Below, piece by piece: positions 2,931 through 48,328 of a DNA stretch of 64,000 nucleotides. Each line of letters begins with the position of its first letter. The stretch's first letter is position 1. A program made the position numbers and the translations under genes. The notes under the pieces were generated by a model. It was not told where the DNA came from and did no database searches. It was given only the letters and a program-made list of their open reading frames with translations. The stretch comes from Rhabditoides inermis (lineage: Eukaryota; Nematoda; Chromadorea; Rhabditida; Rhabditidae). The DNA lies in NCBI GenBank assembly GCA_963966185.1, contig CAWZYM010000408.1:1-64000 (forward strand). Reading direction: 5' to 3'.

Positions 2931-4918
2931 CCTCACGACCTCATTTCTATGACATCAAATCAAATCAAACCTGGCTACTCGTGCGCCGACCAGCTCTATG
3001 ACATCACTGATCTTTTTAGTACAGATTCTATAATGTTGTTTTTCCAGACCACAATGCTAATTTTTGTTTTGGAGCACCACGTATACGGATGTCGTTCTTT
3101 CTTGTTTCCCATTTACATTTTGCTACTTATCTCGCTTCTTTTGAAATGTAAAAAATCGCTCGCATTCCGGAAATATTTTTTTATCTTCGATACAATGCCC
3201 AAATATTTATAAGTTGTAAGCAAACTAAGTGATCTAACTGTGAAGGACTAGTTTCGAGCACTGTTTTCTGTGAGTGGTTCTTCTCTTATTGGGTGCCATC
3301 GGCAGCCGCGGGCAAGGTAGATGCGGGATTAGAGACAGGAGTCTGGGTCACGGTGAGTAGTGGAGGCGGGGCTGCATCGGAGGAAGAAGGAGGAGCAGAA
3401 AGCTGAAGAAAGAAAGAAAACCCTCGTTCCACCTCTCATAGTAGAACAGTTATAGTCGACGCCTGGCAGAAAGTTCCGGCCACGCCTTTTCTTCTTTTTT
3501 TTCCGCCGGCGAGCCAAACTCAGTTATGACAACACAACTTAGTTTCGACAACTCAGTAACTGTTTCGACAAGTTTGACTCATCGCACACACCTTCGGATG
3601 CGGGGTAATATGCAGAATATATCCATATACGGCAAGCGACAAAGCGAGCAGATAGAGTCCGAACGACGAAATATCTGATTCACATATGTGAGTACAAAAC
3701 CATTAGTTTGTTACAAACTCACATGAGGCAACAAGCGATACGTATAAGGGATTTGTGTGCGTATCACATACTGCATGCACCATATTCTCATAGATGATAG
3801 TCAGACCACACTTGTGATCGAACATTTCCGACATTGTGGTCTGAACATTTACTGCAGAACTTGACAGAAAACTGTGAGCCAACCTTGACAATGGATCGAT
3901 GGCGGTTCAATTCGAGGAGAAGTTTGTTTTTCATTTCAGATTGTATACGTGTCATATCAATAGCTTTTTTCAGAGATTCGGCTAGTTTTTTGAACGAATG
4001 GTTTGACAGATCCACATTAGCTGATTTGGCGATAGAGGACTGATTTGATTATGAATTTAATGACTCTCATTATGTTACTTACTAATGTTTCTATATATTT
4101 TATAGCGTCTTTGGCAAAATAGTTCACTACACCCTCATTGGTAAATGTTACATCCTTGCAGATAAATCGATGAACTGCTTTTTTAGAAGGGTCATTGCAA
4201 TTGGTTGTCACATTCAAAGCAATGTTGAAAGTCGAATGATATTTCTAAAAAACTGTTTCGTATTTGTTAGCATAACTCTAAAGTATAAACCTCTGATTTT
4301 GAGATGGCATTGTAAATTTTGTTGTGAGTGTCTTGCTTCAAACTCATGGATTTTGAGAAAACTTTAATTTGATTTTCATATGTTTTGAATTCTGAAAAAA
4401 ATGACGTTTTGTGTTTATGCGATATGAAATACATGAAAAATCCATAACTGCAACTATTGATAACTAACCATTATCAATAGTTGCAGCTATGGATTTGTCA
4501 AACACCGATTGGTAACTTTTCTTCATTCGACAGGATGGAACGATGTGTCTGAGTTTAATATCACTTGTTTTCAAAAACTAATTGTAGTGATACCGGAAGT
4601 CAATTTCTTTTGCATAAAACGGAGACACAAATTTCGATGACAAGTTTGCTATTTCTTGTTCGTTATTAAACAAATAGTTGCATCCAGAATAATATTGAGA
4701 CGAATGTAGAAGGTGTCTAAAACGTTGTTACAATTTTTTAACAAAAAAACTAACGTTGCAAAGAATGCCACAGCCGAAATTAAAAGAACCATCAAGGCCA
4801 ACATTGGGAATAGTGGACCGACTGAAACAAAATTGACTAAATATTGGAATGTTCATTAAACTCACGTTTTTTCATGCAGCTTGCTAAGAAAAGAAAAACC
4901 AAACAAGCAATAGATAGA

Positions 4919-5296
4919 ATTCTCTTTCGAAAAGTACACGAGTAAAGAGGAGTGGTTTGTTTTGATCTAATTCAACAAAAGCACATGCATAAAATCTCTT
5001 CGCAGCTGACTAAAATTTCAAAACAAACCTGCTCTTTCGAACGATGTTTTAAAACTCTAATTGTTTTCTTGTTAGCATGTTGAGTTCAGGTATTCAGGAT
5101 ACTGTTAATCCCAACAAGTAACTTGCAACAAAATGTATGACACGATTATAGTGCATACTATATTTTTCATCGATCAGAAAGAGCAGGTTTGTTTTGAAAT
5201 TTTAGTCAGCTGCGAAGAGATTTTATGCATGTGCTTTTGTTGAATTAGATCAAAACAAACCACTCCTCTTTACTCGTGTACTTTTCGAAAGAGAAT
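4919..5296. mobile_element. Foldback MITE 2, inserted in copy A
   Basis: Terminal inverted repeats of about 123 bp: 4919-5042 is the reverse complement of 5171-5296, almost without mismatch. Outer ends read ATTCTCTTTCGAAAAG and its complement; the spacer is about 130 bp. No coding capacity. It is absent from copies B and C, so it entered after the duplication. Confidence 0.88.
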
Positions 5297-5399
5297 GGAT
5301 GTCCTTTTCTCAAATTTCGAAGAAATTGTTTTTCAGGTTGATGTGCCGAACATGTTATGTATACATATTCGAAACTTTAGAAAACGTATCCTGAATATG

Positions 5400-5760
5400 G
5401 AAACGCACTGCTTTGTCGAATCGCTCGTGCGCCTGCCAATGCCAGTCTCTCATTGACACGCGCTATTTCGCGTCTCTCTCTCTTACCCACTCACTCCGCT
5501 CCGCACACTCCCCTCCCCCCACAGTTTTCGCGCCAAAACTGGGGCGGTGGCCTGGACGGCGAGCCGACACGAGAGTGGGTGAACGAAGGGCGGGGCATGC
5601 GCTCAGCCAATCAGAGTGCGCACGCAAGAGAGCCGAGCGACCAATGAGCGCAAAGTGCAGTGGGCGGAGCTTACGTGATGCACACCGTCGTCGCCGCCGC
5701 CGCCGCCGTCGTAAACACGTTTAGTGGCAAAGCGGGAGAGAGCAAGAGAGGGCGGTTTTT
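5400..5760. promoter_or_regulatory. GC-rich promoter-like block with CCAAT and GC boxes
   Basis: Inside the insertion that splits copy A. It has GGGCGGGGC, GGGCGGAGC, and CCAAT motifs near 5608 and 5641, CT-rich flanks, and a CCG/TCG trinucleotide run at 5687-5712. No TATA box stands out and no downstream exon could be tied to it, so promoter function is only inferred. Confidence 0.25.
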
Positions 5761-6397
5761 GGATGCCGCAACCGATATTGGTTTCACGAATCATACTCAT
5801 AGGTCTTACAAAGTGATATTCTAACAAATAACGCACACTAATTAAGTATATTGTATTAGAATAGAGAATCGTGTGTGCCTTGGGAGTGGCGTGTTGCGCG
5901 CGTCACAGCTCAAAACAAACGGGCGCCGCTGCGCGCCGCCCCTAATGATTGGATGAGCTACATAAACAATAGCGTTTGTCGAAACTTCATGTAATATCTG
6001 AACAATGAAAATGTTAAAATTTCTCTGAGAAACTCAATAAACATACGGTATTAATGCGGTTTTTATACAAATCAAGTTTATTCGCATTGATTATCGTCTG
6101 AAATGTATGTCTTGAAAGGTCTTACGAGGGAGGTGTTATAGGTCCTCCACTCGGATTTACATCTGAAGGCACCATTCGAAAGCTCTTTATCTCCTTAACA
6201 ACATATAACAAATTCAGCTGCCCTCGTTTCCATTAAAGTACCGTAATCTTCGTTTGAAGTTCCATAACTCGGCTCTATTTCGATTAAATCTCATATTTCA
6301 AAGTTTTTATGAAAGCTATAGTCTTCTATAAATATTAGGGACCCACTTCGATAAGAATAGTGCAACATACCTAACACAAAGTACAGTAACCTGGTAT

Positions 6398-9300
6398 CTA
6401 GTCGGGTGCAGAGAACAGTGAGATGAGCTTCCTGTTCGCAAAGAACCCGACTCCGCTCTGCATCGCCTGTGAAAATAGACAAGAGTTACAGAATGCCAGT
6501 TAATAACTAAATTTTTTTGGGTATAAAGTGTAACAGTCCCTAACGATATGTCAAAAAATGCAATAATATGTTTGAAAATGCTTTGTTCGCATCCAACTAA
6601 GTCATCAATTCAAGTTCTCAATATAAGTATGTCATTGTCATATTACGTTATTTCTGTCACTGTTGTAACGTTTTTTTACTCACCTGATGTCCCCGAATGA
6701 TCATCTTCAGTTTGTTTTCCTCGCACACTTTGTTGACAACGTTCTCGCCAAAGTAGATCGAAGCGTCGCGTTTCGTGTTCGTAATTGTACTGAATCATGC
6801 ATCATTCAACCATACACCCTTCGGCAGTGCGTACCCATCCAGGTTTTCCATTGGATCGGCCCACAAGATATCGAGGAACTTATCCTCAGTGCGCTTGTGG
6901 GGCTCATTCATCTGCAGAACACGGACACGTCAGTAATCAGTTATTGTTTCACATAAATCTACTCTTCCGCAAACCTCTTGTATGTGTTCAATCTTGAGAC
7001 CACTGCGAATGCCTCCATGCATGCAGAGTATCTGTTTGTCGATTCGCGCAGCGATGGGGAACAGTTCGAAGACAGACTGGAGCTCGGACTCGAACTGCTT
7101 GATGTCTTTTGTAGATCCATCGATGCGCTCTGCCAGTTCCTTCTTGAACGCTTTGTTCTCCACGCGCTTCGACTCGTGGTTGCCACGAAGTAGTACAAAC
7201 TGAACGTGTTCAACATCAAATCTCAAACTACTGACGATATTTAGGTTGCCTTGATTAAGTTTTGGGAAAAGCACAAACAGCGTTAGCCCAGCACAAACGG
7301 CACTTAAAGGAACAGTGGCGATTTAATTCTGCAACTAGCTCTCTTGAACGCACATTACAACTCATACAAAACATTTGTCGTAGACAGGACTCGAACCGGC
7401 GAGGTCTGTGCCATTACGGCGCACACACGCATTGAGCCACATAGTAAGTGAACGAGCTTCTTTCGTCTGGGGTTATGTGTTCTATCGTCAGTTCTGCAGT
7501 ATTGAAGAGTTCAACGGAACGGAAGTCGTGGCGTGACAAATTTTGAGTTTGAAAAAAATGTTGCAACAGCGAGTTGCAACATTTGAAAGCAACGGATAAT
7601 CGTTGTTCTTACTCACAAATCGATCGAGATTTGGGTTAATATGATTCTTTCGATCATTCCGAGTCAAAAACAAATCGCCAGTGTACCTTTAAAGTTGACA
7701 TGAGCATGTTTTGTGTCATTATCAGACATTTTCGGTACATTTCCCCCTCATTTTTCCATATGTCATGTAAAAGGTTAGGAAAGTGAATGTGCGTTTTGTA
7801 AAAAAAAAGAAGAAATTCGCCTAATTGCTATGGGGACTCTCGCGCTGGAAGGACAATTCACTTAATGCTTCAAATTTGAGTTTACGCTGTTTTTGCATAT
7901 TTTTTTGCAATTTCAGAACAGTTGTGGTCTACTACAAGCGCCATTCGAGCAGATAGGGGTTCAAAGATCCTCTACAAAGTGGTAGTTGTAGCGTTGGTCC
8001 ATAATGCAAATTCAGACTGTTAAAGAACCATAAAGGACCCGAGGAGAGAATCGGCAAAATGCAGTGCGTCGACAGGGTGCGAACACAGAACCTGCCGCTT
8101 GACAGACGACCGCTCTATCCACTAGGCCACAGCCGCTGTTTCACAGCTCGCGCGAAAAGGGTGACAGGGCGCAAAAGCAATCCACACGGTTAAGCTCCAA
8201 AATTTGAAACGTAAATATCTCGAAACGTATGGCCGGTCATGTGGATTTGAAAACGGTTTTCGACTAGTGACCTCCTAGGGTATCTCTGATATCATTTTGG
8301 TCACCATCGGCTTCTGTGACCTAAACTACACTTCTCGGGAACCGAGAGTAACACAACAGAGCAAGTAAGCGCGATGAACTAGTAATGTCATTCGCATTGT
8401 CTAGTGCCTCAGTCGCATTGTTGTCCTTGATAAGACAGTCGACCGTCCGCCCTGGCAGAATATGAGGGGGGATGCCTACCCCTTATTCAAAGCCATCGGC
8501 GCTGATCACTCACATTTGTGGGGTAAAGATACTTGAGGATAAAGAGAAGAAGGATGCACTCGAGAGATCGCTCGCCGCGATCAACATAGTCACCGAGAAA
8601 GAGATAGCGGCGAGTGAAAACACCTGCAACACTCATCATAACTATATCTGATTGGTGAAACAACGCGACAAGTAGCAGACTACTTAGTCGCGAATACAAC
8701 GTACCGTGAACACCATCTTCGTTGAACAGAGCGAAAATACGCAACAGATCCTCGTACTAAAATCAATGTGTTTCGTTATATATGTTGTATCAAAGATACC
8801 AAGTGTATCATGTACTCAAAGAAAGGAACCTGTCCATGTATGTCAGCCACTATGACGTAGGGAGCAGAGATCTCGATCAGCGCGAGTTTCTCCGCGAGAA
8901 GAATCTCCCGCACCTTCTCCACAATTTTCTTGTTGAAAATCTCGTTGATCGTAGGCTTGGGCAACTGAAATGCGATTGCACAAATGGCGTGAGTCGTTCC
9001 TACTTTGGCCCCGTTCTTGAAACTGTCCCACTTCAGAAGCACAGTCAGCCATTTGTACATCTCCGCCTTGACTACTTCCTTATCCGATAGAATGTCAGCA
9101 AGCTCTTCGGGTTCGTCGTCCACACGCTTCTTGGGTTTCCCGCATTTCTTCGCTCTCTTCACGTTCTAAAAAGCATACCATTTGCCGATAAAGCGTTGCA
9201 CGGTTTACGTGATTTCCTCGCATCATCGTCACTGTTTCCACGCCGTAGCCAATGTCGTAGGCGTAGTTGTTGCCCTCAACATACTCGACGTTCACTTCTT

Positions 9301-12300
9301 TTTGTGTGCGCTCCAAATCGTCGCACAGATGCTCTTGCTGTAAACGACAGCAGTTAAAGAGAACCGTTCGAGAAACGTACAAAGGTTTCCGGAATCGAGT
9401 CGTGTATTATGAGATGATTTTTATGGTTGATGTGGGTCTTTTCAAAGATGTCGTTCCCCTCCAACACGCCTCTGCCTGAATTCAATACAGCAGTATGTTT
9501 GCTTTTCAACAGACAACACTCACTGTCGTTGATTTTCTCTCGTTTTCTCTGGTGCACCTTCTCGGAGTGGTTTTTCTCTGATGGGGTGCCTTCGGCGGCC
9601 GCGGGAATGGAAGGTGCGGGATTAGAGACAGGAGTCTGGGTCACGGTGACTAGTGGAGGCGGGGCTGCATCGGAGGAAGAAGGAGGAGCAGAAAGCTGAA
9701 GAAAGAAAGAAAACCCTCGTTCCACCTCTCATAGTAGAACAGTTATAGTCGACGCCTGGCAGAAAGTTCCGGCCACGCCTTTTCTTCTTTTTTTCGCCAG
9801 CGAGCCAAACTCAGTTATGGCAACACAACTCAGTTTCGACAATTCAGTAACTGTTTCGACAAGTTGAACTCATCGTACACACCTTCGGATGCGGGGTGAA
9901 ATGCAGGATGTATCCATATACGGCAAGCGACAAAGCGAGCAGATAGAGTCCGAACGACGAAATATCTGATTCACATATGGGAGTACAAAACAATTAGTTT
10001 GTTACAAACTCACATGAGGCAACAAGCGAAACGTACAAGGGATTTGTGTGCGTATCACATACTGCATGCACCATATTCTCATAGATGATAGTCAGACCAC
10101 ACTTGTGATCGAACATTTTCGACATTTTGGTCTGAACAAGCTAGTTCACGAGCTGTTAAAAACTGTTATCATACCTTGACAAGTGATCGATGGCGGTTCA
10201 ATTCGAGGAGTAGTTTGTTCTTCATCTCAGACTGTATACGTGTCATATCCATTGCTTTTTTCAGAGATTCGGCTAGTTTTTTGAACGAATGGTTTGACAG
10301 ATCCACATTAGCTGATTTGGCGATAGAGGACTGAAATTGAATCCGAAATTAATGACTCTATCATTATGTTACTTACTAATGTTTCTATATATTCAATAGC
10401 GTTTTTAGCAAGATGGTTCACGTCACCCTCATTTGTAAATGATACATCCTTGCAGATAAATCGATGAACTGCTTTTTTCGAAGGGTCATTGCAATTGGTT
10501 GTCACATTCAAAGCAATGTTGAAAATCGAATGATAATTCTAAAACTGTTTCGTATTTGTTAGCATAACGCTGAAATATAAACCTCTGATTTTGAGATGGC
10601 ATCGTGAACTTTGTTGTGAGTGTCTTGCTTCAAACTCATTGATTTTGAGAAAACTTTAATTTGATTTTCATATGTTTTAAACTCTAAAAAAAATGACGTT
10701 TTGTGTTTATGTGATATGAAATACATTATTAACTAACCATTATTAATAGTTGCAGTTATGGATTTGTCAAACACCGTCTGGTAACTTTTTTTCATTCGAC
10801 AGGATGGAACGATTTGTCTTAATTCAATATCACTTGTTATCAAAATCTTTTTGTAGTGATACCGGAAATCAATTTCTTTTGCATAGAACGGAGACACAAA
10901 GTTCGAAGACAAGTTTGCTATTTCTTGTTCGTTATTAAACAAATAGCTGCATCCAGAATAATATTGAGACGAATGTAGAAGGTGTCTAAAACGTTGTCAC
11001 AATTTTTATAATAAAAAAAAAACTAACGTTGCAAAGCATGCCACAGCCGAAATTAAAAGAACGATCAAGGCCAACATTGGGAAGAGTGGACCGACTAAAA
11101 CAAAACAAATAAAGATTGAAATGTTCGACTCACGTTTTTTCACGCAGCTTGCTAAGAAAAGAAAAACCAAACAAGCAATGGATAGAATGATTGGATGAGC
11201 TACATAAACAATAGCGTTTGTTGAAACATCATGTAATATCTGAACGATGACAGTGTTAAAATTTCTCTGAAAAACTCAATAAACATACAGTATGTATGCG
11301 GTTCTTATACGAATCAAGTTTATTTGCGTTAATTATCGTCTGAAATGTATGTTATGAAATATATTCTTCGTGAAAACATACCATGTCCGTGAAATTGTTG
11401 AAATCGAAACGAAGACTCGAGGATGGAGGTATCTGAATTTGAATAAGTGTTTTACTCGTTTTACTCTTTTTGTTGACCTGGTAAATTTTATCGTTGATAA
11501 CAGTTTGAAGATATGAATCGATGTCTGTTTTGGTAATCTGAAATGACAACTAGTTCATACATGAACGATCTTTTTGAACATACCCCAAATGCCGCTTTTT
11601 TGTTGTTGGAAATGATTTCTTTCATCAATGTACCAGCTTCTGAATACATTGTGTCCATATTTCCAAAAATAGGAATATAGACAGATTCTTGTGCGATTTG
11701 AGTTTCAATATCATTCTAAAAATTAAACAAACATTGAAGAAAACAAAGTATCGTTTTAACCTTCATTCGATCCATAAAATCAGACAACCGAAAGAACAGA
11801 TGATCGAGTTGTTTAAATTCTCCTCTTCGAACAGGATAAGAAAGTTCGGCTAGCTGGTTTGTGAAACTGTTTACATCCGCCTTAAAAGAGTTTCACGTAA
11901 AAAAGATTGTGATCTATTCTGAAAGTACTGTCCTCATTGGAATAGATCTATTAACACGTAATCATAGATCTTCGCGTGTTCGAGTTAAACGATTAAACGG
12001 CGTAATTTGCATTCGAATAGAAACTCTCGCAAAAATCAGCAGAGCGAAAGACCGTATTACGAGACTGTGCCCTTAAAAAATGTGCCCTTAAACTGTGCCC
12101 TTAAACTTCGGGTAAAAAGTCACCCGACTAGAATAGTAGCGCGCCTGGAACCATATTTTGGGCTCCGCTCTTCTCCAGTCAGGCTAATTAGGTACAGGAA
12201 TCGCTATGAAAGATTCAAAAACGTTTTCTTTAACTAAAACTTTTGAAGACTGTCGAAAGATCTTTGACAGAATTGAGTTATGATGTAACATTTTGTCCTA

Positions 12301-13985
12301 ATTGACTGATAATCTAATTTTTCCTACAGTTTTTCAATCAATAAAATGATTGAAATAAACAAAGTTTTGTTGGAACCATTTTCTGTTTAAGATCGGCGGT
12401 GATAAATTCGGCTGCTTCCTTTGTTGCATCAAACTAAAACATACAGTGTGCATTTCTTCTCGTACCATATCCAACCTGCGCCTTTGAGTGCAAAGATGTT
12501 TTCATCGATTCCATTGCAGTGTCCAAAATCTTCACATCCGAGCAAAATCCATGTAGCATATCTCTTTTCAGTTCTAAGTAAATCAATGAAAAGTGAAATT
12601 TAAAACATAACACGAATCACGTTTGATCTGTGATTTGATGATTGCGTTTCTTTCAGCTTCCAAGGAAGAGTGGTAACTAATCGCGGAACCAGCCAAGACG
12701 AAGGAAGCAACAATAGCAACAACCATGGTTGAAAGGAAAATGAACAAAACGATCCAACAAAACTGGAAGCAATAATGGATTGTATATTTAATAAACGTTA
12801 TCTCACGATCATTTTCTTGTTTTTCTTCGCTCCATTATTCTGTTTCTCGTTCTGTGATGCCTCTTTCTTGGATTGCACCGTATTCAAATTGTCCTTTTTC
12901 GATTTCGTAGTAGGTGTGCCCACTATTTCCTTCTGTGTAGTTTCATTCTGGGACGTCTTCAGTGTCGAATTCTGTTTTGCGTCTCCTCCGCCCACTGCCC
13001 TCTCTTCCTTCTTGGTTGTATCCTCTTTTCGACTCGAAACATTTGTGGGAGTGCCAGCTTTAGATGTCGTCGCATCATTTTCTGTGTTCACGCTTGCATC
13101 AGGTTTGTTCGACTTGCGTACAACATGAATTAGAAAAATGACGACACAAAGTCCGACAACAAACATAATGGCTCCAATGATCGGAACCTGAAAATCAAAT
13201 TGCTCACGTGTTAGTTTGATGAAGTCTTACAATTAATGTTAGAGAGTCATCTTCAATCATTGCTCCAGCGAAAAACGGTCCAAGAGTACCATTCGAATGT
13301 CCCGTTATCACCTAAAAATATTTATTCTTTTGTGAAACAAACATCAAAATGAATCAACTTTTTACAAAACATGAACTTGAAAAAACTGAAAAAAAAACAT
13401 TGAGGTTTAGCAAACATCGCTATTCGGAATCATTTTCCGAATTGTTTCGAAATAAATAGCAAGGCGTTCTCAAGGCAACTCGCGGCAGTTCTAAAGGCTC
13501 GGGAGGGTTTCGAATCGTGATCGTGTGATGACTATAGCCTTATTTGTTTTTGTTCGAAAAGGACTGACACAAGCTCAGAACGACAAAGTCACCTGCACTC
13601 ATTTCAAGCGTAATGAAAAAAGAGTCAGGTTAAACTCACTCCAATAGCCGTCGACACTACTTTCTTATCCACACTTGCTTCATACTTCGGATATCCAAAC
13701 ATCTCGATGAATCCATAGTCGCGTTTTATGGGAACAGTCGCCGGCATAGGACACAAGACGAAAGCTCAAAACATAGATAGTAAGAACATATAGATACACA
13801 AGTCCTATAGCTACACAAGAGCGTAAGGTATTTGGCATCAGTGCTACGTCACTTTATAAAAAAAAGGTAACTCACGAATGTCGTTGCTCTTGTACTTCTG
13901 AACAATGGCAGCGTCGGAGACATTGCTGGCGTCGCTCATTCCGCACATCAATAGCAGAAGGAGAGGGACACTGAAAGGGAAGATG
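6398..13985 (-). CDS. Copy B: five-pass (prominin-like) membrane protein fused to a PPP-family Ser/Thr phosphatase
   Basis: Predicted about 1,285 aa. Exons: ~13985-13876, 13764-13640, 13311-13231, 13187-12807, 12762-12621, 12573-12476, 12433-12377, 11880-11761, 11715-11584, 11537-11382, 11339-11289, 11239-11134, 11094-11028, 10985-10738, 10683-10583, 10538-10377, 10330-10175, 10140-10014, 9965-9883, 9695-9524, 9475-9381, 9337-9209, 9165-8830, 8756-8705, 8623-8514, 7199-6975, 6911-6835, 6789-6684, 6466-6398. Exons 2-29 total 3764 nt and, with one base from exon 1, give 1,255 in-frame codons. Order: signal-like LLLLLM, TM1 ~101-123, charged loop, TM2 ~228-253, ectodomain ~240 aa, TM3 ~489-511, TM4 ~517-540, ectodomain ~265 aa, TM5 ~805-825, proline-rich linker, phosphatase ~1000-1285. 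Prominin topology puts the phosphatase in the cytosol. The initiator Met is unresolved. Confidence 0.6.
7302..7695. mobile_element. MITE 3 with an internal tRNA-like segment
   Basis: About 394 bp bounded by imperfect 24-bp inverted repeats: CACTTAAAGGAACAGTGGCG at 7301 and the complement of GCCAGTGTACCTTTAAAGT at 7677-7695. A tRNA-like segment (7379-7446, minus strand) lies inside. A relative sits at about 14928-15265. Confidence 0.65.
7379..7446 (-). other. tRNA-derived segment
   Basis: On minus there is an A-box-like TGGCTCAATGCG and a perfect B box GGTTCGAGTCC at normal spacing. No convincing acceptor or anticodon stem, so a tRNA-derived repeat head rather than a working tRNA. Confidence 0.5.
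8040..8340 (-). repeat. tRNA-derived dispersed repeat, copy 1
   Basis: Shares about 240 bp with 62555-62793. It contains a tRNA-like block on minus (A box TGGCCTAGTGG, TCTGTCA anticodon region, B-box-like GTTCGCACCC) and a conserved body with AATCCACACGGTT, GTAAATATCTCGAAACGTATG and CACCATCGGCTTCTGTGACC. On minus the body precedes the tRNA block, the reverse of an ordinary SINE. Confidence 0.7.
9883..13985 (-). other. Pentaspan (prominin-like) half of copy B
   Basis: A cleavable-looking N terminus, five hydrophobic segments, a very short TM3-TM4 loop (SCVKKL) and two large loops of about 240 and 265 residues are the prominin layout (extracellular N terminus, cytosolic C terminus). Membrane segments include [66 protein letters not shown] and [15 protein letters not shown]. 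Loop 2 has [15 protein letters not shown] and an N-glycosylation site before TNCNDPS. The TM1-TM2 loop is about 95 residues and Lys/Thr-rich, longer than in typical prominins, which weakens the family call. Introns here are mostly 39-80 nt. Confidence 0.5.
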
Positions 13986-36245: not shown

Positions 36246-36932
36246 GTGTGCTCTTCTCGCACTCTCTCCCTCTCTTTGCCCATGTCCCCTCCCAACAACC
36301 CCTTGGATATCATCCCCCTCCTCCACACTCTCGTGGAACAGCAGGGACGGATGCTGTCCAACCAGGAGGCGATGCTCAAGAACCAGGGAGAGCAGCTGGC
36401 CGCGCTCACATCCATCGTCCACCAGCACACCGACAAGATCGAGGACATTGCGCGTTCCGTCTGCGCCATATCTTCCCAGCGCGCTCTCTCGCCGGCTTCT
36501 CAAGAAGCCCGCTCACCTACTCGGACATCACACGCGCTGTGCACATCGATCGCCACGTTGTGGAGGATAAGGCGACCCGAGCAGTGATAGTCGGACGGCA
36601 CGAGTGCTCGACCCCTCAGGAGACTGCCGCCGCTGACAAGCTCTTCCTGCAGGCGCTCGTTAGTGGTACAGCCGACCCCATTCTCATTGGACTTCTCAAC
36701 GAGGGCCGTATCTCGTCGCATCGCCACTCGCCGAATCGCAAGAAGGACGAGCACAGAATCATCAAGATCCAGTGCCCGGATGCTGACACTCGCACGGCTC
36801 TTCTGCGCGGAGTCTGGGGTCACCGCTGGACCGACCTCGAGAATCTGCAGTTCCGATACGCCAGGAGGGACTACACGCAACCGGAGCTCGACCAGGACTA
36901 CGCTCTCCGCGCTGAGGCCATGCGACAAAGGA
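36246..36932 (+). pseudogene. LINE ORF1 fragment (coiled coil plus RRM-like)
   Basis: Opens with MSPPNNPLDIIPLLHTLVEQ, a heptad-rich segment (QGRMLSNQEAMLKNQGEQLA), then, after a frameshift near 36500, AVIVGRHECSTPQETAAADK and a DLENLQFRYARRDYT segment typical of LINE ORF1 RNA-binding regions. It breaks off at 36932, exactly where copy C begins, so an ORF1 piece was joined to the pentaspan pseudogene. Confidence 0.65.
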
Positions 36933-37275
36933 AGCAGCCAAATTCATCAGCGCGGATCTCTACCAGAAAATGGTTTCAACCAAACTTTGTTCATTTTAAT
37001 TATTTTATTGACAGAAAAACTAGGAAAAATTAGATTATCGGTCAATTGGGACAAAATGGTACATCATAACTCAATTCTGTCAAAGATGTTTCTACAAGCT
37101 TCAAAAATTTTAGTTTAAGAAAAACGTTTTTGAATCTTTTATAGCGATTCCTGTATCCAAATAGCCTGAATGGACAAGAGCGGTGCCCAAAAAATATGGT
37201 TCCAGGCGCGCTATTATTTTTGTCTTTCCTCAGAGTTCTTCTTAAAGAGGACAGTGTCGTGATAAGCTTTATAGC

Positions 37276-39572
37276 ACTCACTCACTCACTCACTCCTCGG
37301 CCGATTCTCCGTACATCATCTGGAGCATTGTCGCTCCTTAGCCGGCGAGCATCGCGTGAACCAGTTCTGACCACTTGAAGCGGTCTTGTGCCATGTCCAT
37401 AGCGGAACGAAGTGTCTCTCGAGGTAACCTTGGCGCGCACGGCAGGCGTGGGCCCGACATCCTCCTTCAGCTTCTTGTCCCATGTGGCGCGTTTCCTTCC
37501 TGGGCCTCGTCTCCACTCCGGCGGCGGTAGTGTGAGCGCAGCTTGCTTCACAATCCGATGGTCTTCTCGTCGTAGCACGTGTCCCAAGAGACGAACTCTC
37601 GTTGCCGCCACTTGCCGCGAGGGGGTGGGCAGCTTAGACTTTTTGCTTAGACATCCGGAGCAAGAATTTGCGTTCCGCCGTATCCAGCTTCTCCTCGAGC
37701 TTCTTATTGAGAGTTCAAGTACCGGATCCGTAGAGCATCGCAGGTCGGATGGCGGTGAGGTAGATCCGCAGCTTGACGTGATTGGCGACGCTCGATCTCC
37801 ACAAAACCTTTTCCAGCGAATTGAACGCGGAGCAGGCTTGGGCGATTCGCGCCTCTCAGACCGTACGAGGCGGCGAGGAGACTGAGACGGTCGACAGCTT
37901 TCTGCAGGTTAACAGGGTCTTCTCCAAGAATAGCAATGTCATCCGCGTAGTCGAGGTCGGTGACTTTCCGTCCTGTCGGGTGCAGCTCCACTCCTCCTCC
38001 ACACTTCTCCACAACACGTCGCATCACGTCGTCGATGACACAGTTGAACAGAAGCGGGCCGCAGACGGATCCTTGGCGCACTCCAGTCCGGACGGCGAAC
38101 TGCTGCGTGAGTCCGCAAGGAGTGCGGACAGCGGCAGTAGTACGGCTGTACACGTCTCGTAGAAGGTCGACTAGAGGGGCTGGTACTCCGTCGGCGCGCA
38201 CCACATCGAAGAGGCGGTCTCGATCGGGACTGTCGAATGCTGCCCGGAAGTCGACAAAGATGATGTAGGTCGGCCTCTTGAATCGGGCACGCAGCTCAAC
38301 GATCCGTCTCAAAGAGAAGACGAGGCGTCGATGGTAGACCAGCTTCGCTTTGAGTTGACGGTAGGCCTTCAGCTTTCCTCTCTGCTTCGCTAGCAGCATG
38401 CTCGCGTAGCACAAGGATTCCTTCACTGACGCTCCATCGTGCTTTTTTCCACCTTCAGAGTTGGAATCACCTCCTTGGCTGCCTGCTGAACTGCAGCCGT
38501 CCACGAGTCAGCATCTGTCTCTCCTTTTTTGCCTCTCCTGCAGATTCTTCTCCATTATCCCTCGGTAGTCCGCGCGCACGTCACCATCCGTGATCAGCAG
38601 GCGAGAGTCGAGGCGGGGCAGTCTCTTCTGGTAAAACGAGCGACGGCGCGTTCCGGATCCACTCACGACAAGAACCACGGGGATGTGATTCGAGTCGTAT
38701 TTGAAGTCCGGCAGGCTTTTGCTGGAGAGGACGGCGCCGGCCTTTCTCTTCTTGACGAGCAGGTAGTCGATCTGGTGCGGCCACCCGATGCAGTTCTTCC
38801 TCCAGGTTGCGCGCTGCCAGGGACGGTTGCGCTTCCAGGCCGACGCGACGATAAGGTCGTAACTCTTCAGCAGATCCACTATCCGCTTACCGTTGTCGCT
38901 TGTGCAGTCGGCAGCCCGCCTCCACCTGCCCATTGCTGGGCTGGCGTCGGCAGCCACGCGGATGTTCGAGTCAAGTCCGAGGACGAGCTCTGACTTGACG
39001 GCCGGTCTCACAATCTTGGCCAGCTTGTCAAAGAACTTGTCCTTCTCCACCTACTCGGCATCCTCGGTTGGCGCATGCGCCGACACGATGCGGGTCTTCT
39101 TTCCTCGTACTACTGCATCCACGTAGATGAGTCGGGGCGAGAGAGGGTTGATGGCGAGCACGTTGACGTTGGCGGAGGTGAAGATGGCGACAGTCACCCC
39201 GCACACCGCCCTGGAAGTGGGCAGTGCGCTGTAGTACTTGTACCGCAAGGAATCGCAGCACGTCCGGTCGATTCGGGTCTCCTGCAGCATCGCCACGTCC
39301 ACTCCGTGCCGCTCGAGCTCCTCCGAGAGCAGGCTCCGGTCTGCGAAGCTTCTGGCAGAACGGACATTGTAGGACATGTAGCGAGTCCTGGTTCTTTGCG
39401 ATGATCGCATATTCGGTATGTTGGGCATAATGCTTGTCGTATTGTCGTGTCGAAGGGTGACAATTAATTGACTCGAAAGTAGTCAACACTTGAACTTAGC
39501 AGTCTGTATGCACAGGCAAACGGGGAGGCACGACGTGGACGTGAGTGTTGACAATTTCTACCCCCCCCCCCC
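37276..39572 (-). mobile_element. LINE 1: degenerate non-LTR retrotransposon (EN + RT)
   Basis: On minus: an AP-endonuclease (SYNVRSAR, VAMLQETRID), an in-frame TAG near 39054, EN remainder (VLGLDSNIR, IDYLLVKKRK, SNHIPVVLV), a deletion removing the RT fingers, then RT motifs FVDFRAAFDSPDRD, GVRQGSVCGPLLFN and LDYADDIAILGED, and a C-terminal RRDHR/LGHVLRRED segment near 37560. The 3' end is (GAGT)n. Flanks AAGCTTTATAGC (37264-37275) and AAGCTATATAGC (39573-39584) make a 12-bp target duplication with one mismatch. RTE/CR1-like; clade not settled. Confidence 0.88.
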
Positions 39573-40124
39573 AAGCTATATAGCGCAGTTGTGAATAGGT
39601 CTTTCCCTCTGCTGATTTTTGCGAAAGTTTTTTGTCAATGTCAACGTCAATTTAAATGACGACAGTATCTACAAAACAGATCACAATTTTTTTATGTGAA
39701 ACTCTCCCTTTAAGGCCGATGTAAACGCTTTCACCAACCAGCTAGCCGAACTTTCTTATCCTGTTAGAAGAGAAAATATACAACTCGATGATCTATTTCT
39801 TAGGTTGTCTGATTGTATGCATCAAATAAAGGTAAAAACGTTACTTTGTTTTCTTCAATGTTTGTTTATTTTTTTTAGAATGAAATTGAAACTCAAATCG
39901 CACAAGAATCTGTCTATATTCCTATTTTTGGCAATATGGGCACAATGTATTCAGAAGCTGTTACATTGATGAAAGAAATCGATTCCAACAACAAAAAAGC
40001 GGCATTTGGGGTTGTTCAAAAAGATCGTTCATGTACTACATAGTTGTCAATTCAGATTACTAAAACGGACATCGATTCATATCTTCAAACTGGTATCAAC
40101 AATAAAATTTACCAGGTCAACAAA

Positions 40125-42662
40125 TTTCAATTTTTTTCAATTTCAATTATTTATCATTGCGTATTCAGAAAACATATGGGGACAAAAATGTGTGGCTGTA
40201 ATAAGTGGTGCAACGTATTTGTGATTAAGATCAAATCAAAGAATGGTAAAACAGATACAAATGCGTATGGGACAATACAACAGACATATGTATATGAAAT
40301 GAATGTACTCTGTTACATATACTGGGGAGACCGTACCCGTATCGATCAGGAAGCGCGGATGCGAGATGGTTCAATCATGCATTTTCTAACCTCCTCTTTG
40401 AAAGAACCGGTGTCTCTGATAGCTATAATGTTAGATGGTAAGGAATTCCATATTCGAAACTTGCGGTGAATGAATGTCTGTGTTCTAACGGACGGATCAA
40501 AAGAGGGTACGATTCGGTGGCAGTGAGAGTGTCTCGATGATGTGGATATGATATTATAGATGGCGGATGAGTCAAAGACGGTGCGACCGTGTACAATTTT
40601 ATGTATGTAGGCAATATCATTGACTGCTCGTCGTGACTCGAGAGTCTCCAAGCCTAGCAGGCAGAGTCTGGCAGAGTATCCTAGATTGAAAATGCCATTT
40701 TTATGGCAGATTCGTCTGGTGAAATACCGTTGAACGCCCTCAATAAGATTCACTGAGCGCACATCGGTGGGATTCCAGAGCTCAGTACAGTACTCCAGCT
40801 TACAGCGATAATATGTCACAAATGCTTTGCAAAGAACGGCTAAGCTGCGAGTACGGTATGCTCTTAGGAAGTCATTGATTCCCCAAAGTGTGCGATCGAC
40901 AATGCGTTTAATGTAGTCATCGAAAGAAAGGCGAGTAGAGATATACACACCAAGATCTTTAACACACTCAGGGGTTTCTAGAGTCACTGTGCCAAGTGAA
41001 TATGCATACAGCGGATTTCGCTTGCCCAAGTGAAGAACCTGTGTTTTGCTAGCAGATATGGTGAGACCCCACTCAATCGACCACTCAGAAACACAGTCGA
41101 CTTCTTGCTGAAACTTAGTGCGCGCGGTGAGATCGAGGGGACAGAACGCGTAGGACACTTTCAAATCGTCAGCATACAATGCGCAGCGAACATAGTCCGG
41201 CAAACAGTCGACAATGTTGTTAATAAATACATTGAAAAGAAGAGGCCCGAGACAGCTCCCCTGAGGAACACCGCAATTCACAGTGCGTGGGGAGGATAGA
41301 CACTGACTGACAAGTACACGCGTTGTTCTATCGCACAGAAAAGATTTGATCCACGCGAGTGCACTGCCGCGAACACCAAGTGAGTGGAGCTTCTTGAACA
41401 ACATGGAATGATTTATGCAATCAAACGCCTTTTTGTAATCTACATAAAGGCAGTCGACTACTTGCCCGTCGGTGAGATCACGCGACCACTGGGCATGACA
41501 CTCAACGAGCTGTGCGCATGTGGATCGGCCCGCGCGGAAACCGAATTGGCGAGAGGTGAGAAGGCAGTGTTTTTCAAAGTGCTCTGTCATCTGCGCCGCG
41601 CAAATCCTCTCCAGCAGTTTGGAAAGTGTGGCAGTGAGAGCAATGGGACGGTAGTTGACTACCTCACTCTGGGACCCACCCTTGTGGATGGGTCTCACAT
41701 ACCCTATCTTCCATATAGGAGGAACGACACACGCGGAAAGAGACTGCTGGAAGAGGAGAAAGATTGGAGTGACTACAGAGTCTACAGTGTGCTTCAAGAA
41801 AATATGCGTTATCCCATCTGGTGACGTATTGATTTTTGGCGCGAGTGAGCGTATTGTTTTGGCAATGAGAATGTGGGTAATGTGAAATTGATTGATTGAA
41901 TGGGAAGAATCATTGAGTGGCGCACCAGACGGGATTGGTAGATTAGAATACACTGAGTCAAAGTACTCTGAAAAAGCCTCTGCCTTCTCACTCTCATCAT
42001 GAATGTACACGCCATCAGCAGAGCTTATTGGGCCGATTCCATCTGCGGGGTTCAGCCTAGATCGAACGTGTTGAAAGAATTTTCTCTGTCTCTTAGAGAG
42101 CAGACTCGACTCAAGCTTGGTGTTCCATGCGTACAGCGCGCGTCTCAGATCTTTCTGTGCTCGTTTAGTGTCGCGGGAATAGGGTCGCCTGGCGGCAAGG
42201 CGCGTCGCTTTCGCACTCAGACGCTGGATATATGCTGGAGCTTTCTGGCTGTTACTGCGCTGCGGTTTCAGTGGAATATAGTCCAATTGACAGGATGCGA
42301 CACAATCTTGGAACAAACTGCAACACTCAGCGAGTGTCCGTCCGGCGAATGTGAGAGTCCAGTCAATGGAGGCAATGCGCGAGTTGATGGCGGGCCAGTC
42401 CGCCTTGGCATAATCAAAGCGAGGTGAGAGGGTAGAGCGCTGCGTTTGGCGAATAGAGAGAGAGGCAATCACTGGGAGGTGATCACACAACGCAATACGT
42501 GAGCCAATGGAAATGTGTGAGAAGAGATCAACCTTGTCAGTCAGTATCAGATCGAGAATGTGGGGAGTTTGCCCGGGCCGGTGGACCATAGTGGGTTTAT
42601 GGACCAGTTGAGATAGCGAAAACGTGGCGGTAAAGTTGATAAAAAAAGTTGATTTTTTTAGA
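40125..42662 (-). mobile_element. LINE 2: 5'-truncated CR1/L2-like retrotransposon with intact RT frame
   Basis: An open frame of up to 781 codons (42691-40346) begins near the end of the endonuclease (LDLILTDKVD, LCDHLPVIA) and covers the whole RT: YVDYKKAFDCINH, GVPQGSCLGPLLFNVFINN, CALYADDLKVSY, LHLGKRNP, and the CR1-type C-terminal YFTRRI/LGLETLESRRA block. Flanked by CAACAAA at 40118-40124 and 42663-42669, a 7-bp target duplication in copy C exon 10. The long undamaged frame implies recent insertion. Confidence 0.92.
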
Positions 42663-44600
42663 CAACAAAATGAGTAAAACGAGTAAAACACTTATTCAAA
42701 TTCAGATACCTCCATCCTCGAGTCTTCGTATCGATTTCAACAATTTCACGGACATGGTATGTTTTCACGAAGAACATATTTCATGACATACATTTCAGAC
42801 GATAATTAATGCAAACAAACTTGATTCGTATAAGAACCGCATAAATACCGTATGTTTATTGAGTTTTTCAGAGAAATTTTTAACATTTTCATTGACAAAC
42901 GCTATTGTTTATGTAGTTCATCCAATCACTATATCCATTGCTTGTTTGATTTTTCTTTTCTTAGCAAGCGGCATGAAAAAACGTGTGTCGAACATTTCAA
43001 TCTTTATTTGTTTTGTTTTAGTCGGTCCACACTTCCCAATGTTGGCCTTGATCGTTCTTTCAATTTCAGCTGTGGCATTCTTTGCAACGTTAGTTTTTTT
43101 TTAATATTAAAAAGTTATGACAACGTTTTAGACACCTTCTACATTCGTCTCAATATTATTCTGGATGCAACTATTTGTTTAATAACGAACAAGAAATGGC
43201 AAACTTGTCATCGAAATTTGTGTCTCCGTTTTATGCAAAAGAAATTGACTTCCGGTATCACTTCAATTAGTTTTTGAAAACAAGTGATATTAAAATTAAC
43301 TCAGACACATCGTTCCATCCTGTCGAATGAAGAAAAGTTACCAATCGGTGTTTGATAATTCCATAACTGCAACTATTGATAATGGTTAGTTATCAATGTA
43401 TTTAATATCACATGAACACAGAATTTAAAACATATGAAAATCAAATTAAAGTTTTCTCAAAATCCATGAGTTTGAAGCAAGACACTCACAACAAAATTAA
43501 CGATGCCATCTCAAAATCCGAGGTTCATACTTTAGCGTTATGCTAACAAATACGAAACAGTTTTAGAAAAATCATTCGATTTTCAACATTGCTTTGAATG
43601 TGACAACCAATTGCAATGACCCTTCGAAAAAAACAGTTCATCGATTTATCTGCAAGGATGTAACATTTACAAATGCGGGTGACGTGAACTATCTTGCTAA
43701 AAACGCTGTTAAATATATAGAAACATTAGTAACATAAGGATAGAGTCATTAATTTCATATTCAAATCAGTCCTCTATCGCCAAATCAGCTAATGTGGATC
43801 TCTCAAACAAGTCGTTCAAAGAACTAGCCGAATCTTTGAAAAAAGCTATGGATATGACACGTATACAATCTGAAATGAAGAACAAACTTCTCCTCGAATT
43901 GAACCGCCATCGATCAATTGTCAAGGTATGATAACAGTGTTTTAACAGCTCGTAAACTAGCTTGTTCAGACCACAATGTCGAAAATGTTCGATCACAAAT
44001 GTGGTCTGACTATCATCTATGAGAATATGGTGCATTCAGTATGTGATACGCACACAAATCCCTTGTACGTATCGCTTGTTGCCTCATGTGAGTTTGTAAC
44101 AAACTAATTGTTTTGTACTCAAATATGTGAATAAGATATTTCGTCGTTCGGACTCTATCTGCTCGCTTTGTCGCTTGCCGTATATGGATACATTCTGCAT
44201 ATCACCCCGCATCCGAAGGTGTGTACGATGAGTTAAACTTGTCGAAACAGTTACTGAGTTGTGTTGCCATAACTGAGTTTGGCTCGCTGGCGAAAAAAAG
44301 AAGAAAAGGCGTGGCCGGAACTTTCTGCCAGGCGTCGGCTATAATTGTTCTACTATGAGAAGTGGAACGAGGGTTTTCTTTCTTTCTTCAGCTTTCTGCT
44401 CCTCCTTCTTCCTCCGATGCAGCCCCGCCTCCACTACTCACCGTGACCCAGACTCCTGTTTCTAATCCCGCACCTACTTTGCCCGCGGCTGCCGATGGCA
44501 CCCAATAAGAGAAGAACCACTCACAGAAAGCAGTGCTCTAAACTTGTCCTTCACAGTTAGATCACTTAGTTTGCTTACAATTTATAAATATTTGGGCATT

Positions 44601-45463
44601 GTATGGAACATAATAAATAGTTCTGGGAACTGGGATGTGATTGAAATGACAAGAATGATGAGCAACCGATTTGGTTGTATAGATTTTTGACCGTAGAGTA
44701 GCAGACAAAATTAAAAAAAAATTCTAGCAATCATTGTGATTCAAGGACCAGATCATTATATTTTCTTGTCATAACCAAATCTCTCTCTCTCTGCGCTCTC
44801 TCTTATCTCTCTCTCTCTTTTGTGTTTTTCTATTTTGCTCTCTCTCTTTCCCGCACTGTCCCGCATCCTCTATGCCCGCAGTCATCGGCGTTTCAGCGGG
44901 TGGGTACTGTAGATAGAGAATAACTGTAGCTACCGTACTCTATTATCGACGTCCACAGCCTCGATGACAGTTGTTACCAGCGGAAGTGGGTGGTGTTTTA
45001 ATTATACCTCATATTTATCTAGTTATCTAAGCAAGTTGAGTAGGTCAAAGTATTCTCTTATAACCCACGCCACGAGTCAAGTGGCTGAAAAATAGTATCC
45101 AATCGTAACATGAAATTTAACTAGTGGATAAGGTCACAATAGTCTTTTATCGTAATACTAACGAGGAGTGTCGTTAGAGCCACACTCTCGGATCCGAACC
45201 AAATTGATAGGATACCTTAGTTAGGACCCCAGACATAGATTTCTGGTGTTAATGTTTCCTACGCGCCATATACGTCTCCAGTACGAACACGTACATGGCT
45301 GGATTTTTGCTACCTCATTCCACCTCTGGCGGTCAAAGACCGAGTCGTCGTAGCTTAGTGGTTAGCACATCAGTCTGTCAGACCAGAGGCTGGGGTTCGA
45401 GTCCACGCACACGATTTTTGTTTTGCCAGCACTTTCTGGACATGGACTTGCCACACTCTCGGA
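44601..45463. other. Spacer between copy C and the Penelope-like element
   Basis: AT-rich and CT-rich DNA without an exon. GCCACACTCTCGGATC occurs at about 45179 and again at about 45449, bracketing roughly 270 bp that include a tRNA-like segment. Confidence 0.5.
45344..45414 (+). other. tRNA-derived (Asp-like) segment
   Basis: A box TAGCTTAGTGG (45351-45361) and B box GGTTCGAGTCC (45394-45404) are perfect and correctly spaced, with CTGTCA at the anticodon-loop position as in tRNA-Asp. The acceptor and anticodon stems do not pair well, so a tRNA-derived repeat is more likely than a gene. Confidence 0.45.
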
Positions 45464-46503
45464 TCGAACAAACAAGCGCCACTGATAAACAAACAGTCTT
45501 CCTTGATCTCGAAATAACCATTAAAATTCAAATAATTACTTCACTTTATAATAAGACAGATGAATACTCGTTCGAAATAGTCCGCTATCCAAAATACAAT
45601 ACAAACATGAAACGCAGCATATCGTGGAACTGTTTGAATGGAGAAGTACTGAGAATATACAGATGTTGTACTGAGACGAAGACTTTTATGTCTAGAATCA
45701 AAGAACTACGAGATAAATTTATAAGAAACGGTTTTCCCAGTCAAGAAATAAACATGAAAATTGCATACGCAGTTATGCAGAATAAATCTCTCACTATAAA
45801 ATATAATCTTGAAAAAATGGAGTCCTTTTTGAAACTTTTTAATTGAGAAGTGATTAACGCCCGCACCGGAAATATTGATCTTTGAACTAAACCCAGCACT
45901 GCACACTCAGTGCGAGTGACCTCAAGGAGACCTACGGCAGACTACGCTGTAGCCACGCCACACCCATCCCACTGCCTCGCGCAGTCACTCACAAACAAAT
46001 TCTCAAGCGTCTCCACACTGTTTTGTGCTCATTACTTGTAACTTGCTTGCTTATGATAGTTATTTCGCGTTTTCTTTCCTTTCTTTTTATATACCATATA
46101 CAATACTACCCATTCAAAAATTACACGTCTCTCTATCGTTACTGACGAGGGTGGGAGGGACAAAGTTTTGCCGTATAGCGTTTTACACCCGAAACGGCTT
46201 TTATCTTTTATCTCTCTGTCTTTCTCTCTGTCTCACCCCCTTTTTTGTTTTGTTTGTTATCGCAATTATTATGTTGCGTTTATTATTTATTGTTTGTACC
46301 GGTAAGATTCGGTGACTGTGTAGTCTGTGACTCACTCCCTTTTCTGACCCGGGGGGAATATCGATCGCATGATCAATATCTCCGTTCGCAATTATTATCC
46401 ATTATGCACTAACCCTTTTCTCCTTTTTTCTTCTTCTTACATATTAAATCATTAATTCTCATCACTACACTTGCTATCACGAGCTTGTTTCCTTATGAGG
46501 CTT

Positions 46504-46697: not shown

Positions 46698-47399
46698 CCA
46701 AATGACGGTGACTCTTTCACTACTGTATTCCTTTGGAATGCACTCAGAAGTTTATTCTTCTGACTCCACTCTTAAGAGACATTGTCTCTAATACATTCAA
46801 CTGATCCTATCAGGACTTAGTCCTGATCACTCTTACTACATTTTACGGTTATATTCATTCAAGATTACCAATCATTATTGACTACCTTCCTTCTGACATA
46901 ACAACTTTTCAAAACACAACTTTTCCCTCCCAATTCAAAACTTCTAAAATAAAAGAACAGTCACAATGTATTCAACTAACGCTACAATAACAAACTCGCC
47001 TTTCATCCGCGCTGATCAACAATTATCACCAACAATGGCTAAATAAAATTTACATTGATTGAGCTTACAACCTATCCAAGACATCCATTATTAAGTAAAA
47101 TACCACGAGGATTCAACCTCGGAATTTAAAAAATCGCCTTCATCATGATGAGGATTAATGATCAGGACGGTACCTTACCGCACAGTGGTGTGTCCTGACG
47201 CCTACCGTGATGAGGGGACAGGGATACCCAGTCCGACCAATACTTATTATTCATCACTTCACCAACAAATATACTCTGTCACCACAGTGCACCCACTTAC
47301 TTCCGGCTCGGTGGCCACTAAACACCGAACACCCCAACCACCCAATTCGCTTACTATCAAAATAACAATATCAAATGCCGGAGGGAAGGGAAGTCAAAA

Positions 47400-47939
47400 A
47401 TGGCCATTATACCCACCTCAACCACAGCTAATGGAATACGCTGTACTATAAAACAGTGCGTTATCTGCCCCAAACTAAAATTCGCAAACACAACAAAAAG
47501 CAGTCAAACAGGATTTACGCATCCTACTATGAAATACGGTGATGCAAATTGTTCTTCAACGTGCCTAATCTATCTTATTACATGCAACAAATGTAAAATC
47601 CAGTATGTTGGCGAAACTAGCACAACACTGAAACAAAGAATGTCAAAACACAGAAATTCCTTCAAAAACGATAAATACAATACTTACATAAGTAACCATT
47701 TCCAAGCAAACGACCACAACCCAGAAGACTTCACGATAGAAATTCTTGACAATCATGAAGAAAATAGTAACACTCAAATTAGACTTTCGAAAGAACTATA
47801 TTGGATTAAAACATTAATATCAGCATACCCATTTGGTCTAAATGATCAATTAAAATCTTTTGGAAATATTTCAAACAATTTAACTCTTGGAAAGATTAAA
47901 AATCATCCATTTTACAGACGAACTTTCTATATTCCATAA
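47400..47939 (+). CDS. Penelope-like GIY-YIG endonuclease domain
   Basis: 179 codons. A Cys pair (CVICPKLKF) and further Cys/His precede the nuclease motif LIYLITCNKCKIQYVGETST, then LKQRMSKHRN (catalytic Arg) and HFQANDHNPEDF. It lies N-terminal to the RT, whereas canonical Penelope elements have it C-terminal; N-terminal placement is known for the Naiad/Chlamys-type group. The frame stops in TAA after TFYIP and coding continues in another frame, so either a frameshift or an unrecognised intron exists near 47930. Confidence 0.88.
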   Translation: MAIIPTSTTANGIRCTIKQCVICPKLKFANTTKSSQTGFTHPTMKYGDANCSSTCLIYLITCNKCKIQYVGETSTTLKQRMSKHRNSFKNDKYNTYISNHFQANDHNPEDFTIEILDNHEENSNTQIRLSKELYWIKTLISAYPFGLNDQLKSFGNISNNLTLGKIKNHPFYRRTFYIP

Positions 47940-48312
47940 AATAGCAAATTACAACTCATTTTTAAAAGAATTGAACAACGATATGATTTCTAACATCATT
48001 GAAAGTGAATGTGAATGTAAAACAACTTATAAAAACTTCATTAATTCTCATCACAATCATATAGTAACTGGAAATCTAAACATAATCGAGAATCCAAAAC
48101 TACGGAACCTTATGGAACAAGGAACAAAATTCAGAGAACAAAAAAGGTACACAATAAATGATATCCAAACTGAGGTTGAAACTACACTAAACCAATTCTG
48201 CAAACTTATTGCTAACAAATATCAACTCCATAAAAACATTGAAAATCTTGTCACAAATTCAATACTCTCACAATTTGAAATAAAGCTGAGAAAACAATAT
48301 ATAAAACAATGA
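47887..48312 (+). CDS. Linker region of the Penelope-like polyprotein (frameshifted)
   Basis: Continues from the nuclease in a second frame (FHKIANYNSFLKELNND), helical and Lys/Asn-rich, and ends at TGA about 16 nt before the RT frame. No separate domain recognised; it corresponds to the region ahead of the RT fingers. Confidence 0.65.
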   Translation: MERLKIIHFTDELSIFHKIANYNSFLKELNNDMISNIIESECECKTTYKNFINSHHNHIVTGNLNIIENPKLRNLMEQGTKFREQKRYTINDIQTEVETTLNQFCKLIANKYQLHKNIENLVTNSILSQFEIKLRKQYIKQ

Positions 48313-48328
48313 AAATAATTGGCATTCT

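Follow-up and report, generated by a model that had tools for sequence, protein, structure and literature searches.

Receptor-type protein tyrosine phosphatases (PTPs) combine an ectodomain, a membrane segment and a cytosolic phosphatase in one protein, and some of them contain a dead catalytic domain. Serine/threonine phosphatases of the PPP family are thought to get their location and specificity from separate regulatory subunits. Prominin is described in one account (PMC3108902) as having a small, Cys-rich first cytosolic loop of about 30 residues, and three homologues of it are known in C. elegans. Here we describe a gene of the nematode Rhabditoides inermis, copy A, located in the first 64,000 nucleotides of contig CAWZYM010000408.1 (C408:1-64000 of the 172.6-Mb assembly; this stretch is the window below). 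Its predicted product consists of a part with five transmembrane (TM) segments, which we call the pentaspan, followed by a tail, a linker and a PP1-like phosphatase. The general layout is that of a receptor-type PTP; those enzymes are Cys-dependent, whereas the family described here carries a PPP metallophosphatase and passes the membrane five times. From sequence comparison it is very probable that copy A belongs to an old, expanded nematode family of pentaspan, linker and PP1-like PPP, that is, of membrane-spanning Ser/Thr phosphatases, of which it most likely represents a truncated copy. No pentaspan-PPP fusion was found in the literature searched, as far as titles and the beginnings of abstracts tell.

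Independent rebuilding of copy A on the minus strand (13970-6398) gave 31 exons, from 13970-13876 down to 6466-6398, which share a single frame: after one carried base it runs for 1,254 codons and closes with a TAG. Every intron is GT...AG. A first-pass annotation made from the letters alone had counted 1,255 codons in conserved phase from exon 2 to the stop, and this number was recovered exactly; the exons that it named as joining the two halves (9695-9524, 9475-9381 and 9337-9209) are as described in the rebuilt model. It is confirmed that one open frame covers both pentaspan and phosphatase. Exon 14 occupies 11239-11134: the acceptor at 11240/11239 gives an intron of 49 nucleotides, and the alternative acceptor would leave an unrealistic 22. 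The Pfam, paralogue and tree comparisons reported below used a model nine residues longer (1,263 residues), the additional residues being located between ectodomain 1 and TM3, outside the linker and the phosphatase. Hydropathy analysis placed five hydrophobic segments in the first 800 residues or so, at 99-117, 227-245, 474-492, 503-521 and 781-799. Two further segments exceed the same threshold within the phosphatase and were taken as part of its fold. The order along the pentaspan is N-terminal ectodomain, TM1, basic cytosolic loop, TM2, ectodomain 1, TM3, TM4, ectodomain 2 and TM5. The parts of copy A are as follows.

13946..13948, minus strand: the only in-frame ATG near the 5′ end, downstream of a hydrophobic signal-like stretch
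9883..13970, minus strand: pentaspan part, exons 2-21 (13970-13876 to 9965-9883), defined by the exon chain, hydrophobic segments and dN/dS
9524..9695, minus strand: tail exon 22, Ala/Pro-rich and then basic, ending in phase 1
9354..9728, minus strand: open frame across the 48-nucleotide intron 9523-9476; retention of this intron would put a pentaspan stop at 9354
9381..9475, minus strand: linker exon 23, defined by the exon chain and a phase-1 junction
9209..9337, minus strand: linker exon 24, containing the first Met of exons 22-24
9004..9165, minus strand: exon 25, pre-catalytic segment, from the exon chain and comparison with locus L033
6398..8964, minus strand: PP1-like phosphatase, from motifs and the Metallophos match; exons 26-32 at 8964-8830, 8756-8705, 8623-8514, 7199-6975, 6911-6835, 6789-6684 and 6466-6398
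6398..6400, minus strand: the TAG of SAPD*, at the point where similarity to L033 ends

Pfam Metallophos (PF00149) matches residues 1041-1241 of 1,263 with 115.2 bits against a cut-off of 21.5 (E 6.4e-33), and it is the only match in copy A above its own Pfam cut-off. No PTP domain exceeded its cut-off in the Pfam scan, which places copy A outside the receptor-type PTPs. By sequence, the nearest solved structures in the PDB are BSU1, calcineurin and PP1. PPP enzymes have the metal and catalytic motifs GDxHG, GDxVDRG, GNHE, HGG and RxHQ; copy A reads ADIHGQ (the first G replaced by A), GDYVDRG, RGNHES, CMHGG and RGHQ and is recognizable as a PPP by them. Many of the named database matches to this domain are nematode proteins; among the matches listed, the first is from Auanema and the second is a plant model. 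Copy A has in common with the nematode PP1-like proteins the catalytic fold, the metal and phosphate motifs and, itself, a Metallophos score far over the cut-off, with 49% identity to the Auanema protein P0002 over the aligned part and 46% to P0007 of Pristionchus pacificus. It differs from them in extent, the 120 listed of 7,278 matches aligning over only 56-75% of the query.

The first-pass annotation had proposed a pentaspan-PPP fusion at this one place. The fusion was borne out, and beyond that claim it proved to be a gene family: at least eleven loci in the genome carry a pentaspan end, the linker and a PPP, each on one strand. Five of them are on contig C114, two on C189, two on C355, one on C369, and copy A on C408. 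Only the best candidates are scored in the genome search, so that these numbers of loci are minimum values. The members and relatives most used in the comparisons are listed here.

L043, C369:735-744.5 kb: fused, 33 modelled exons
L044, C355:760-769.5 kb: fused, 33 modelled exons
L033, C369:1522-1531.5 kb: phosphatase paralogue with linker exons; upstream matches are confined to the TM5 exon and a portion of its predecessor
L035, C369:1438.5-1448 kb: pentaspan copy; an insertion interrupts exon 16, and a stop lies just past the segment aligned with exon 22
Copy B, window 3266..6117, minus strand: decayed, incomplete pentaspan with matches to exons 13-22; stops fall in exons 16 and 22
Copy C, window 36922..44528, plus strand: decayed pentaspan whose three blocks match exons 8-22; stops fall in exons 16 and 22

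L043 and L044 are open from a Met and signal peptide through pentaspan and linker into the phosphatase and beyond the point at which copy A stops, with no stop in the frame; their last exons were not traced as far as a stop codon. All 32 junction phases are identical between the two, and the introns are GT...AG with a few GC...AG. Introns in this genome are mostly short, about 40-50 nucleotides. Segment by segment, L043 and L044 are 17-50% identical to copy A, with synonymous divergence (dS) of about 1 or more, saturated in places. Both hold a complete set of PPP catalytic motifs. In a tree of 35 rows, in which the 29 comparison phosphatases were hand-picked from database matches and the unfused phosphatases of this genome were left out, the six fused sequences form one clade with support of 100/95; this fits a single origin.

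Both halves, and the linker between them, show an excess of synonymous over nonsynonymous changes. The pairwise ratio of nonsynonymous to synonymous substitution (dN/dS) is 0.29 on the phosphatase side of A and L033 (0.22 in the catalytic part and 0.45 in the part before it), and likewise 0.29 on the pentaspan side of A and L035 over about 711 codons. Other pentaspan comparisons of A, with B, C, L036, L038 and L040, gave 0.33-0.56. Exons 23 to 32 have equal lengths in A and L033, and 1030 of 1160 exon positions are identical (88.8%), against 299 of 380 (78.7%) in the short introns. Between L043 and L044, dN/dS was 0.37-0.54 in three large pentaspan segments. By one-sided Fisher tests for this pair, dN of.215 and dS of.489 were obtained for the pentaspan (p 2e-17), dN of.133 with saturated dS for the linker (p 4e-20), and dN of.224 and dS of.674 for the PPP (p 2e-14). 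Since diverged paralogues repeat the chain of exons and both halves of copy A give a dN/dS of 0.29, these alignments argue that the fusion is not a chance read-through.

Whether pentaspan and phosphatase form one protein turns on the junction between them. The linker exon is preceded by a phase-1 intron at seven of the seven loci examined: A, L043, L044 and L056, where the phase was called by script, L033, under an assumed frame, and L064 and L019, by reading. With an intron of this phase the linker exon opens inside a codon whose beginning is supplied by the pentaspan or tail exon. The first Met of exons 22-24 in copy A falls in VETVTMM of exon 24, with no earlier Met there. At five of the seven loci no in-frame ATG was found ahead of the linker exon before a stop, and the models of A, L043, L044, L056 and L019 contain no stop between TM5 and the linker. 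The 67 linker codons of A and L033 that precede the first linker Met of A have dN of.059 and dS of.244 (p.005). We infer from the shared phase-1 intron, the lack of a shared linker start and the purifying selection upstream of that Met that the fusion is spliced and translated as one protein.

Several observations weigh against this reading of the family. L043 and L019 do have an in-frame ATG just upstream of the linker exon, at unrelated positions; L033 has a Met (EEMEDG) in the exon directly before the linker intron and, read straight on, meets a stop after TM5 unless a 41-nucleotide intron is removed. Copies within one genome share an ancestor, so that their common order alone is no proof of one transcript, and the fusion is known here from the sequence of a single genome. 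BLASTP at E<=0.01 found no match to pentaspan or linker among 240 listed database proteins (120 of 7,278 and 120 of 696 matches, a further search having given a single one, all drawn from 5.8 billion sequences by a search that needs exact five-letter words and uses length windows); a few listed proteins reach 70-78% of the query region, yet they contain no linker match. No clear constraint is visible on the TM5 segment when A is compared with L043 or L044 (dN/dS 1.3 and.75 over 40-48 codons). The proportion of synonymous differences (pS) in the L043/L044 linker is.80 against.33-.45 in the large pentaspan segments and the PPP, about twice as high and unexplained. Copy A itself stops at SAPD* and lacks a clear start, and L033 and the C189 copies show that members of the family decay.

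The last two points bear on the state of copy A, which is probably a degenerate member, translated at most into a membrane protein whose truncated phosphatase is dead; this is compatible with the family as described. A complete PP1 catalytic core includes the last strands after SAPN/D-Y. This end of the core is missing in copy A. Exons matching the end of the fold continue past SAPD in L043, L044, C114 L068 and L033, where they lie in L041 downstream. The exons that follow in L044 (GAVLDV.. and VGVCFLVPAY..) found no match just downstream of position 6398 of A, and copy B begins some 280 bp beyond the stop. At the other end, no ATG was found ahead of the signal-like stretch of A, whereas the aligned exon of L043 and L044 has an ATG and a signal peptide. 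The neighbouring copies B and C are decayed as well. On the other side, 1,254 codons and the splice sites are intact, the catalytic motifs are retained, and dN/dS is.22 in the catalytic part against L033 and.29-.56 in the pentaspan against B, C, L035, L036, L038 and L040, although some of this constraint may predate the truncation. On balance copy A has probably ceased to make an active enzyme, and L043 and L044 appear to be better candidates for working genes. The term receptor phosphatase, applied by the first-pass annotation to copy A, thus suits the intact L043 and L044 better than A, whose catalytic domain is incomplete at its end and which perhaps has no signal peptide.

A second possibility is that copy A gives rise to alternative forms, the 48-nucleotide intron 9523-9476 being sometimes retained to yield a phosphatase-free pentaspan that ends at 9354. 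The length of this intron is a multiple of three and it is open in frame; the other six loci examined hold an in-frame stop in the intron before the linker, and from these sequences we regard such a form as unlikely.

More doubtful still is the proposal that there are two adjacent genes, or a trans-spliced operon, which make separate proteins, with the linker as the start of the phosphatase. Operons are possible, as the SL1 spliced leader occurs 368 times in exact form in the genome, and pentaspan-only copies exist. The Met ahead of the L033 linker intron and the ATGs of L043 and L019 could also serve such starts. Five of the seven loci (of which L056 and L064 are near copies) offer no in-frame ATG ahead of the linker exon before a stop. 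The split codon at its beginning fits the upstream pentaspan or tail exon, selection acts on the linker upstream of the first linker Met of A, and the way from TM5 to the linker is free of stops in the five models named above. We consider two genes improbable.

A young chimera, formed when a pentaspan gene of the A lineage lost its stop and ran into an adjacent phosphatase, was suggested by the stops of B, C and L035 in or just after the segment aligned with exon 22, and was dropped as barely credible: L043, L044, L019 and L056/L064 are fused as well, dS between A and L043 or L044 is about 1 or more and saturated in places, and the tail exon of L056 resembles exon 22 of A, by eye, past those stops, which are therefore more easily read as later truncations.

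A, L043 and L044 resemble prominin (CD133; PMC3108902) in having five TM segments, a pair of large ectodomains with sequons, each of about 210-260 residues, and a cytosolic C-terminus, as predicted from hydropathy and a sequon scan. This topology agrees with the earlier placement of the phosphatase on the cytosolic side. The resemblance stops there. The first cytosolic loop has about 109 residues in A, 171 in L044 and 167 in L043, with 0, 5 and 1 Cys inside, so that it is about 110-170 residues long against about 30 in prominin and inconsistent in Cys; in addition, the pentaspan family carries a phosphatase. Pfam Prominin (PF05478) gave no match to the whole of A at E<=1, to pieces of A at E<=10, or to three members at E<=10. 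An exon-wise search of the genome found nothing over the Prominin cut-off, the best score being 19 bits on C147; as prominins are known in C. elegans, this search is insensitive and its result weak evidence. A PDB-sequence profile search for relatives of the pentaspan returned nothing convincing (best E 1.2). Pfam matches below their cut-offs (Tetraspanin, PFF1_TM, CitMHS and others) were set aside as matches to hydrophobic segments. Membership in Prominin was not supported by the Pfam, genome and PDB profile searches. Of the initial description as a prominin-like pentaspan, the five-pass topology stands and the kinship with Prominin is unsupported, the profile search that had been suggested as a check having given no match; likeness in topology only is the reason for our using the name pentaspan.

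Other loci show the family in various states of completeness. On C189, L018 and L019 (50356-53589 and 54178-57411) are mirror-image copies of a fused gene. The PPP motifs of the C189 members are altered to GDIFGQ, GNYIDRG and RGN, and the pair looks like a pseudophosphatase member, unless it is a palindrome produced in the assembly. L033 was considered as a second intact fusion and rejected, its upstream match being limited to the TM5 exon and part of the exon before. Linker and the start of a phosphatase, with no pentaspan end matched, were found at C355:931 kb; at C107:307-310 kb there is a pentaspan end with a phosphatase piece 3 kb away and no linker match. One pentaspan end without a linker match is located at C189:42 kb. 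Weaker pentaspan-end matches, with no listed phosphatase match nearby, occur on C306, C209, C337, C258, C216 and C331; therefore phosphatase-free relatives probably exist.

Two arrays were also observed. The region C114:1.80-1.93 Mb (L056, L064, L068) has five fused copies interspersed with four pentaspan ends without a linker match, and C107:7-97 kb (L059-L061, L066) has nine pentaspan ends, similar to one another, for which neither a phosphatase nor a linker match is listed. In the window, the breaks between the blocks of copy C contain retroelement-like sequence by eye: long open reading frames at 40346-42691 and 37282-39050, both on the minus strand, look like a reverse transcriptase/endonuclease of the kind without long terminal repeats. 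Frames at 47322-49720 on the plus strand resemble, again by eye, a retroelement with GIY-YIG-type and reverse-transcriptase-type parts, and its 3′ part recurs at 45253-45846. The intron of A before exon 29 (8513-7200, minus strand) has 1,314 nucleotides; its portion 8332-8084 matches window positions 62560-62792 at 86% and also matches L039, which indicates a dispersed repeat inside the intron.

A similar plan occurs in predicted proteins of three filarioid nematodes, P0128, P0135 and P0143, in which a polytopic Patched/sterol-sensing membrane part is followed by a PP1-like domain. Their membrane part is unrelated by Pfam to the pentaspan, and as predicted models they may be merged neighbours. 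Between P0128 and P0143 the identity is 58% over the first aligned block and 68% over the second; the three represent either a second membrane-PPP fusion or a repeatedly merged gene model. P0001 (QR680_008879) of Steinernema hermaphroditum has a PP1-like domain and a polytopic C-terminal part that is receptor-like by eye; Metallophos is its only Pfam match, and it is possibly a product of merged neighbours.

If the one-protein reading is correct, members of the family would run from an N-terminal ectodomain through TM1, a long basic cytosolic loop, TM2, an ectodomain, TM3-TM4, a second ectodomain and TM5 to a cytosolic linker and the PPP. The pentaspan would anchor and position the enzyme on the cytosolic side of the plasma membrane, a ligand or partner might bind to the ectodomains, and the linker could act as a spacer or regulator that passes on or limits phosphatase activity. 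A partner outside the cell or in the membrane would then set the place of action of the enzyme and might also decide whether it is active, so that dephosphorylation would be local, as in receptor tyrosine phosphatases. The first-pass annotation had suggested that an extracellular or membrane-curvature input might control the dephosphorylation directly. The C189 members, without metal-ligand residues, would be pseudophosphatase ("dead") receptors. We see about an even chance that these genes amount to a new class of receptor-type Ser/Thr phosphatase, with an intrinsic PPP in a five-pass protein, a single origin, about a dozen loci and both active and dead members, controlled directly by an extracellular cue without separate regulatory subunits. 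Such a class would be the Ser/Thr counterpart of the receptor tyrosine phosphatases, in which an outside signal might switch a PPP enzyme directly, and one animal would provide a natural control set, since it has full-length genes that are open, versions that look dead and relatives lacking the phosphatase.

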